Source of the DNA: Sulfuriflexus mobilis
Lineage (GTDB): Bacteria > Pseudomonadota > Gammaproteobacteria > AKS1
Direction: 5' to 3'
Assembly: GCF_003967195.1 (NCBI RefSeq)
Contig: NZ_AP018725.1
Location: 3,034,001 to 3,098,000 of the forward strand
Length of the DNA: 64,000 bases
Of the stretch, positions 50,452 to 53,277 are shown in pieces. Under the pieces are notes generated by a model, which had not been told where the DNA came from, searched no databases, and saw only the letters and a program-made list of their open reading frames with translations. The position numbers and the translations under genes were made by a program. Every line of letters starts with the position of its first letter. The first letter of the stretch is position 1.

Positions 50452-50593
50452 CCGGGTATTTTACCCTATTCGGGCAATCACCATCACATTGGCTTCGGCC
50501 ATTGCCTGAAGCAGCCTGGGCAACACGGCGAAAATAGCACGATCTTACTTCTACACGCGTTTTGTTTAGGTTTTCTGACAGCTTAAGTGTTAT

Positions 50594-50905
50594 TTAACTC
50601 TCAATTCGTATATTCAACAGGGTATGGCCGATTTCCACCTGGATCTCCCGGCTGAACAGGCCGCCCTCGTTAATACACACAACATCCATATAGGCATCTG
50701 TATTACCGCTTTTATCCAGAAATTCCCAGCGGTCTGCGTGGCGGATAAGTTCTATGCACCTTTCCCCTATGATTGGGTCATAATCAATCACAACATCATT
50801 ACTCTGATATTTCCCAATGCTGACCGTTTTACACTTCACGGTAACCGAGCGTCCATCTTCTGGTCCGGTCATAAAAGTAATGACTATTTTTTCTTCTTTA
50901 TGCAT
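50594..50905 (-). CDS. Small FHA-like domain protein
   Basis: This 103-residue protein reads as a compact forkhead-associated-like fold: TVKCKTVSIGKYQSNDVVID corresponds to the FHA SIGR..sNDIvl strand-loop. DPIIGERCIELIRHADRWEF then matches the S..H..i region, though the phosphothreonine-binding SxxH is not intact. FHA domains usually read threonine phosphorylation. Its ATG overlaps the stop of the upstream Clp ATPase by 8 bases, so the two genes must be co-translated. No kinase lies nearby. Confidence 0.7.
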   Translation of the reverse strand: MHKEEKIVITFMTGPEDGRSVTVKCKTVSIGKYQSNDVVIDYDPIIGERCIELIRHADRWEFLDKSGNTDAYMDVVCINEGGLFSREIQVEIGHTLLNIRIES

Positions 50906-53183
50906 TGTCCAATTTTTTTAAAATAACCTCGCCATCCATCAAAGAGCCCTTAAGCCGGTCGCCCGAAACAAAATTTCCCTTAACCATCATATGTGCCAGC
51001 GGTTGTACCAACAATTGTTCAAATGTGCGACGTAATGGTCTTGCTCCATACATAGGCTCATAGCCTTTTTTGACTATGTGATCGACAAGCTCAGTTGACA
51101 AAGTAAGTTCTATGCCTTTTTTCGCCAACTCCTTGCCAAGCTCATTGGTGATATTCATGACTATTTTTTTCAAGGCTGTTTTTGATAATGGTTTAAAATA
51201 TATAATTTCGTCTATGCGGTTAATAAATTCCGGCTTGAAAAACTTTTTACACTCACGCAGAATTTCTTCATTTTGTACTACACTTTTCCGTGAGGTAAAA
51301 CCAATGCTATGGTCATCTTCATAGAGTCCCGAACCAAGATTTGACGTCATAATGAAAATGGCCTCGGTTCCATCAACAGTCTTGCCATGTGCATCAGTCA
51401 GCCGTCCATCGTCAAATAATTGCAAAAAAATATCGAAAACATCCGGATGTGCCTTCTCGACCTCATCCAGTAAAACAACTGAATAAGGTTTTTTTCGCAG
51501 GCTTTCAGTTAGCATGCCTGCTTCCGCATAGCCGATATAACCCGGGGGGGCACCAATGAGCTTCGCCACTTGATGGCGCTCCTGATACTCTGACATATCA
51601 AGGCGAATCATTTCTTTCGCTGAACCAAACAGATTTTCTGCCAGCGCCTTTGCCAATTCAGTTTTACCCACCCCCGTTGGCCCTACAAATAACAGCACTG
51701 CCATTGGCCTGTTTTTGTAGCGCAGACCAGTAAGTGCTGTCTCCAGACTACGCGTGAGAACCTGTATAGCCTCATCCTGACCAATAACCCTTTCCGCCAG
51801 CCTCTCTGGCATTAGCTTCAGCCGCTCTCGCTGTTCACTTGATAACTCAGAGACTGGAAGCCCGGTCCATTCTGTGAGGACAGTAGCGATCTCACTCGCA
51901 TTGATAGTCCGGGGCATCCGCGTAGAGCCAGTTTGGCCGCTCTCTATTTCCCTTATCCGGGCATAAGCACAGGCTTCGTCAAGCAAGTCGATTGCCTTAT
52001 CGGGCAGTTTTCTCTCGGGAAGAAAACGAACAGCGAGCTCGACAGCCGCGTGCAATGCGCTTTCATCAATAATTACATCGTGATGGTGTTGGAAGTGTTC
52101 TTTTATCCCTGCCAGTATCTCAAATGTTTCACTGGGTGATGGTTCACTGACGACGATCGGCTGGAAGCGTCGCTCCAGGGCTGCATCATTCTCTATATAT
52201 TTGCGGTATTCTTCTCGGGTTGTCGCACCAATCAAACGGATATCACCCCGACCCAGCGCCGGTTTGAGTATGTTTGAAACATTCAGACCGCCATCCATTC
52301 CCGCACTACCTACAATTGTATGTATTTCATCTATCGCTAGTATTATATTTTTAGAATTTTTTGCTGCTTTTATTATATTGACGAAATTCTCTTCCAGGTC
52401 ACCACGGAATTTTGTGCCGGCGGTCGCCAATGTCATATTAATTTCTATTATGTGTACATCCTGGAGTTCTTTTATTACCTGATTCCTTGCAATCAGTATT
52501 GCAAGCTTTTCAATGATGGCTGTTTTTCCTACACCTGCCTCACCCAAAAGGACGGGGTTACTTTTTGTTGCCCTCAGGAGCACCTGCTCAAGGTGACGGA
52601 CCTCGTCGTCACGCCCAATAACTTCGTTGAGTTTTCCCTGTCGTGCCATATCAGTAAGGTCGCGACCAAAGCTCAGTAATTCCTTGTATTCATTGTTCCA
52701 GGACTGTTCACCGACTGCCGCAGGCCGTTCGGGAATGTTGTCAGCTGCCAGCGCAGCCTGCACTGCCTCCGCCGAGGTGAAGCCCTGGTCCAGCTTGATA
52801 CCCTGGTCACGCAGTAGCCTGATGGGGAGACTCTCGCCTTCGCTGATGATCGCATTAAACAGGTCAATCTCGGAAATTTCAGCTGTCATTTCCTCAGCGG
52901 CTTCAGCATTAAGCGGTTTTAATATACTCCGTAATCTCGGGGTATAATGGAGACCTGGCCGTTGGCTGGTCTCAAAGCGTCGCTCTATTGCATGCCTGAT
53001 CTCGCGGCGTATCTTCCGTGGGTCGATGCCCTGATTACGCAACAGATGCTCTGTTACCCCGCCAAGTCTGCACAGGGCCATAAACAGGTGCTCCACACCA
53101 AGGTGACTATGCTTTAGCCTGCGTGCCTCTTCACGTGCAGCGAGCATTATCTGAACAAATGAAAGTGATGTTTTTATTTTCAT
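50898..53183 (-). CDS. Clp/Hsp100 AAA+ ATPase, ClpA/ClpC-like without middle domain
   Basis: This 761-residue protein has a double Clp-N domain (about 1-145), AAA1 with Walker A GEAGVGKT (214-221) and Walker B AIDEIH (283-288), and AAA2 with Walker A GPTGVGKT (501-508) and LLDEVEKAHP (571-580). Between them lies no coiled-coil M domain, so it is neither ClpB nor ClpV. It carries SIGF at 626-629, matching the IGL/IGF loop that docks ClpA and ClpX on ClpP, so it may feed ClpP. E. coli ClpA is 758 residues. The partner overlapping its 3' end is an FHA-like protein, and no clpS is adjacent, so this is probably a specialised paralogue. Confidence 0.88.
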   Translation of the reverse strand: MKIKTSLSFVQIMLAAREEARRLKHSHLGVEHLFMALCRLGGVTEHLLRNQGIDPRKIRREIRHAIERRFETSQRPGLHYTPRLRSILKPLNAEAAEEMTAEISEIDLFNAIISEGESLPIRLLRDQGIKLDQGFTSAEAVQAALAADNIPERPAAVGEQSWNNEYKELLSFGRDLTDMARQGKLNEVIGRDDEVRHLEQVLLRATKSNPVLLGEAGVGKTAIIEKLAILIARNQVIKELQDVHIIEINMTLATAGTKFRGDLEENFVNIIKAAKNSKNIILAIDEIHTIVGSAGMDGGLNVSNILKPALGRGDIRLIGATTREEYRKYIENDAALERRFQPIVVSEPSPSETFEILAGIKEHFQHHHDVIIDESALHAAVELAVRFLPERKLPDKAIDLLDEACAYARIREIESGQTGSTRMPRTINASEIATVLTEWTGLPVSELSSEQRERLKLMPERLAERVIGQDEAIQVLTRSLETALTGLRYKNRPMAVLLFVGPTGVGKTELAKALAENLFGSAKEMIRLDMSEYQERHQVAKLIGAPPGYIGYAEAGMLTESLRKKPYSVVLLDEVEKAHPDVFDIFLQLFDDGRLTDAHGKTVDGTEAIFIMTSNLGSGLYEDDHSIGFTSRKSVVQNEEILRECKKFFKPEFINRIDEIIYFKPLSKTALKKIVMNITNELGKELAKKGIELTLSTELVDHIVKKGYEPMYGARPLRRTFEQLLVQPLAHMMVKGNFVSGDRLKGSLMDGEVILKKLDNA

Positions 53184-53277
53184 AATTTTTATTTAACGCA
53201 CATATCACTACGCTTTACTTTATACCTGGCACGACAAGTATCCTGTCGTAAATCCATGCCAGGCTGCACGTGGCTGA

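Follow-up and report, generated by a model that had tools for sequence, protein, structure and literature searches.

Among the double-ring Clp ATPases, ClpC works with dedicated adaptors, namely MecA or McsB, and one of these routes depends on phosphoarginine. To our knowledge, phosphoarginine and ClpC provide the main case in which phosphorylation is known to control protein unfolding or degradation in bacteria. A Clp class outside ClpA, ClpB and ClpC has been described as ClpI in Actinomycetota, some of whose subtypes possess the ClpP loop while others lack it (PMC10149685), and in the type VI secretion system (T6SS) a single system unites the Clp ATPase ClpV with the FHA protein and the Ser/Thr kinase of the PpkA/Fha pathway (PMC10482370). 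The cytoplasmic FHA domains of YscD/PrgH from the type III secretion system (T3SS) show a poorly conserved phosphothreonine (pThr) site and persist as protein-interaction modules (PMC3635987).

The locus described here lies in a stretch of 64,000 nucleotides of Sulfuriflexus mobilis DNA (the window) and comprises the gene of a Clp/Hsp100 ATPase and that of a small FHA protein. Neither a Clp protein without M domain that has an FHA partner nor an FHA protein acting as Clp adaptor was found described in the open-access papers that were searched. With a probability of roughly 0.55, it is assumed that the pair is a horizontally acquired cassette of an undescribed class of Clp/Hsp100 proteins without M domain, which is equipped with a dedicated single-domain FHA partner.

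Setting of the gene pair in the genome

The two open reading frames on the minus strand and their overlap, as reported in a sequence-only reading of the window, were recovered (Table 1). The accompanying statement that both genes are forced to be co-translated was too strong, since an overlap of 8 bases is ordinary.

Table 1. Features of the clp/fha locus in window coordinates
Feature	Position	Strand	Basis or remark
clp, Clp/Hsp100 double AAA+ ATPase without M domain, 761 aa	50898..53183	-	ORF; Pfam AAA_2 1.9e-63, Clp_N 3.7e-12
SIGF, ClpP-docking-type loop, residues 626-629	51297..51308	-	resembles the gammaproteobacterial ClpA loop (S-I/M-G-F)
Site of the missing M domain, residues 408-428, about 20 aa	51900..51962	-	span comparison with ClpC
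Overlap ATGCATAA with the clp stop and the fha start, 8 bases	50898..50905	-	sequence
fha, single FHA-domain protein, 103 aa, degenerate pThr site	50594..50905	-	Pfam PF16697; AlphaFold2 model; GPxDG and GxTx[LMI] motifs
FHA residues G31-K32, instead of canonical GR	50810..50815	-	G kept, R replaced by K
FHA residues G47-C50, instead of canonical SxxH	50756..50767	-	S replaced by G, H by C
FHA residues T69-D70, instead of canonical NG	50696..50701	-	N replaced by T/D
Insertion compared to same-genus genomes, uvrD start to eamA stop	50452..53277	-	about 31 bp there instead

In two genomes of the same genus eamA and uvrD adjoin, being about 31 bp apart, and orthologues of the window FHA or Clp were found in none of three same-genus genomes. 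The GC content of the pair amounts to 0.47 and 0.44 (GC3 0.45 and 0.47), compared to 0.51-0.58 in the flanking genes. Either the pair was inserted here or it was lost in the same-genus genomes, and the composition favours an insertion. We infer that the pair was laterally acquired, and the direction of the transfer is likewise deduced. An imperfect direct repeat of 20 nt is present at both ends of the pair (window 50584-50603 and 53183-53202) with the shared core GTTAAATAA; it may be a target duplication, or a chance occurrence in AT-rich DNA.

The foreign composition and the empty locus in two same-genus genomes, together with the degenerate FHA signature, would also fit a decaying or idle insertion, in which two neighbours without joint function in this host have been retained and the role of the FHA protein has been lost. 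Since both frames and the Clp motifs are intact, the overlap is kept and the fold-defining as well as the family-specific FHA residues are preserved, this explanation is regarded as very improbable.

The genome possesses its own clpA, with a ClpS-like gene just before it, and also clpB. Several Ser/Thr kinases are encoded elsewhere in the genome, and no kinase gene adjoins the window pair. At the clpB locus (L228:976-5928; G000:C1:730475-735427), the genes after clpB comprise a thioredoxin/HEAT-like ORF and those of a Ser/Thr-kinase-like protein of 245 aa (Pkinase 53 bits) and of a PP2C-like phosphatase, the latter two being a possible kinase/phosphatase pair beside clpB.

Class assignment of the ATPase

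Both Walker A/B pairs, the pore loops (GTKFRG and GYIG), the arginine fingers and sensor 2 are intact in the two rings of the Clp product, and since the catalytic motifs are preserved, it would be expected to be a working machine. The description as a double AAA+ Clp/Hsp100 protein with a ClpP-type loop and without M domain was borne out. SIGF sits at the position expected for the ClpP loop, which makes an interaction with ClpP plausible, and the M-domain region spans only ~20 residues compared to 71 in ClpC, ~130 in ClpB and 14 in ClpA. The comparison with ClpA in size needs a correction as regards the sequence: among solved structures ClpC is closest (609 bits), followed by ClpB, whereas E. 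coli ClpA reached 488 bits. The NCBIfam model of ClpA was matched with 692 bits, under its cut-off of 993, and that of ClpV with 640 bits, under its cut-off of 885. Matches obtained with PADLOC were partial, concerned the AAA+ domains and do not indicate a defence system.

A search of 369 genomes of the class and 398 of the phylum revealed no orthologue of the window Clp, the matches being at the level of ClpA/ClpB. The best 80 Clp matches in GTDB showed an identity of at most 44%, and three of them, from animal-gut or unlabelled metagenome-assembled genomes (MAGs), pointed to another phylum (that of genome G747) as carrier of the clade. Of 149 genomes of this phylum, 25 yielded a relative at a cut-off of E <= 1e-160. 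A first tree, which carried a long-branch warning, had joined the window Clp to three Clps from gut MAGs. The maximum-likelihood tree used here leaves out very long rows, with which the window Clp was placed unstably; in this tree it joins the clade of the other phylum with a support of 100/99, apart from ClpA, ClpB and ClpC, on a long branch of its own and with 40-49% identity to the clade members. ClpA forms a separate clade (100/100).

An assignment to ClpA was rejected, since the ATPase lies outside the ClpA clade (100/99) and below the respective NCBIfam cut-off. The same holds true for ClpC, because of the span of ~20 aa compared to ~71 aa and the position outside the ClpC/ClpB group in the tree, and for ClpV/T6SS, with a score below the ClpV cut-off and no TssB/VipA in the window genome. 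The earlier statement that the ATPase is not ClpV-like and that no T6SS genes lie nearby is thereby corroborated.

The M domain is absent in all 25 Clps of the clade. An IGF/LGF-like motif is missing in 22 of them, and the remaining three carry VGF. Since most relatives do not possess such a loop, the Clp family may work without ClpP altogether. For the coupling to Clp proteolysis proposed in the sequence-only reading this means that the SIGF motif of the window copy speaks for it, whereas the relatives leave it uncertain.

The FHA protein and its likely counterparts

The small protein, described at first as FHA-like, matches the FHA-type family PF16697 of Pfam with an E-value of 3.9e-7 (30.7 bits, just under the cut-off of 33.2) and the FhaB model of NCBIfam with 1.9e-5. 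Its alignment to a profile from 31 other FHA domains spans 89 positions and is in register. The AlphaFold2 model based on a 7-row alignment showed a pLDDT of 78 and a pTM of 0.73, and a Foldseek search with this model ranked FHA domains first in the PDB (OdhI with 8.4e-6, GarA, ArnA and YscD). Since the other rows of the alignment are FHA domains themselves, the model represents a consistency test and no independent proof; the model calculated without alignment was useless (pLDDT 37). Altogether, judged by profiles and model, the small protein has an FHA beta-sandwich fold. Searches with its sequence yielded three weak FHA-like matches in the 369 genomes of the class; plasmids and viral contigs gave no match, and the sequence is too divergent for the detection of homologues in this way.

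In the other phylum, an FHA ORF of ~97 aa was found downstream of the Clp gene on the same strand in 18 of the 25 clade loci. In most of these the two genes overlap or lie no more than 4 bases apart; in two of the 18 they are separated by 237 and 505 bases. The ORF is missing in the other seven loci, one of which is cut by the contig end. No FHA ORF was detected near 80 other Clp relatives (1.4 Mb), at 32 ClpA/ClpB loci or beside five paralogues of the G747 phylum. The Clp/FHA pairing is no accident and is conserved in another phylum. Because order and overlap are conserved, clp and fha would appear to form a joint product.

The linked FHA proteins carry an N-terminal GPxDG (16/18, compared to 0/31 unlinked FHA domains) and a C-terminal GxTx[LMI] (18/18 compared to 2/31), which read GPEDG and GHTLL in the window FHA. 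The profile of the linked FHAs gave no higher score (22.5 bits) than the general FHA profile (24.6 bits). Based on the two short motifs and the synteny, the window FHA is likely the counterpart of the linked FHAs. With an M-domain-less Clp of the clade, an FHA gene directly downstream and both FHA motifs, the window pair shows the two features by which the Clp/FHA clade is defined here.

Differences become apparent at the pThr site. The residues R, S, H and N of the signature (G-R, S-x-x-H, N-G) are present in all 18 linked FHAs. In the window FHA four of the five signature residues are replaced and only G31 is kept. Furthermore, a protein kinase bearing TPR repeats in its C-terminal part (TPR-STPK) follows in four loci of the relatives (G759, G751, G755 and G879; assigned by Pfam for three of them). 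The sequence-only reading had suggested looking for a conserved pairing and for a Ser/Thr kinase near the pairs of relatives, and both were encountered. Compared to its relatives, the window pair thus represents the reverse case, with the ClpP-type loop present, the pThr pocket lost and no kinase nearby.

Some loci of the relatives comprise additional genes. In G879 (L225:6057-14429) a second Clp with an RIGF loop lies between the FHA gene and the TPR kinase, so that two Clp genes flank the FHA gene, possibly an unfoldase pair sharing one FHA protein. A TRAM-domain RNA methyltransferase (PF05958) is located directly upstream of Clp in five loci (L214:5904-7340, L217:6142-7557, L220:6005-7495, L224:5088-6923 and L226:6345-7751). 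Upstream of methyltransferase and Clp, a conserved protein of ~140-162 aa without Pfam match was found in four relatives (L212:5021-5449 in the reverse-complemented locus, L214:5450-5938, L224:4658-5083 and L225:4710-5132).

A phosphothreonine switch had been proposed for the window pair. In the form of a pThr-gated ClpP protease, pThr on substrates or on Clp would be recognised by the FHA protein, which would deliver them to Clp-ClpP. The FHA fold, the SIGF loop and the several Ser/Thr kinases encoded at other places in the genome are consistent with this, as are the relatives with intact pThr site and kinase neighbours. However, the linked FHAs possess R, S, H and N without exception, whereas the window FHA has K, G, C and T/D at these positions, which makes a phosphorylation-dependent switch unlikely for this genome. 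No kinase adjoins the pair, and the ClpP loop is missing in most relatives, and a pThr-gated protease is therefore considered improbable.

Alternatively, the FHA protein may replace the M domain, with a structural role in the hexamer or in its assembly, and the complex would then act as an unfoldase or disaggregase without ClpP. This would agree with the absence of the M domain throughout the clade and of IGF/LGF loops in 22 of its 25 members. However, ClpA hexamerises without M domain or FHA protein, and the intact SIGF motif of the window copy matches ClpA, both of which argue against it. In its favour, FHA domains without pThr site as parts of rings are known from PrgH/YscD of the T3SS (PMC3635987). 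On balance, this explanation is rated as rather unlikely.

Proposed role and comparison with known systems

For the transferred cassette, it is proposed that the FHA protein binds the ATPase hexamer, plausibly at the N domain or at a surface bared by the missing M domain, and that it would control hexamer assembly or bring substrates, as MecA does for ClpC. Since the FHA pocket is kept in the G747 phylum and a TPR-Ser/Thr kinase can follow, recruitment is probably controlled by phosphorylation in that phylum. In the window genome, where the pocket is lost, the interaction would probably be constitutive or phospho-independent, and the ATPase with its SIGF loop may feed the ClpP of the host. There is a fair chance that a new Clp class, of which the window pair shows only the edge, lies behind these findings. 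The more far-reaching assumption is a new Clp class in which a dedicated FHA subunit and a TPR-type Ser/Thr kinase gate the machine, so that protein unfolding is under phosphothreonine control; the window pair would be a transferred derivative with the phospho-reading lost and a ClpP-docking loop present. This assumption is put forward tentatively, at somewhat less than even odds. If true, Hanks-type signalling would be coupled directly to an unfoldase through the genetically linked phosphothreonine reader and kinase of such a class. The window copy would then offer a natural comparison (pocket lost, ClpP loop present), by which the contribution of the FHA pocket could be told apart from that of ClpP docking.

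Among the known systems, ClpC of Bacillus subtilis and relatives shares the double AAA+ ring with Clp_N and is the closest solved relative (609 bits), but the window Clp has no M domain (about 20 compared to 71 aa), lies outside ClpC at 100/99 and is partnered by an FHA protein. Gammaproteobacterial ClpA resembles it in the absence of the M domain, the length of 750-760 aa and the SIGF-type loop. However, the window Clp is only 36-40% identical to ClpA and falls outside its clade, and the genome holds a separate clpA after clpS.

In contrast to the ClpV system of T6SS, the ATPase is not ClpV, the FHA protein comprises only ~100 aa and TssB is absent from the genome; around those loci of the relatives that were inspected by eye, no T6SS genes were recognised. 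The degenerate FHA domains of YscD/PrgH, which lack the pThr residues, belong to the same Pfam family as the window FHA (PF16697, E 3.9e-7). While they are parts of membrane ring proteins, the window FHA is a free protein of 103 aa paired with a Clp ATPase. ClpI differs by an M domain of ClpC length, which the window Clp does not possess, and FHA proteins do not appear in the account of ClpI; as an extra Clp class, it nonetheless represents the nearest precedent for the one proposed here (PMC10149685).
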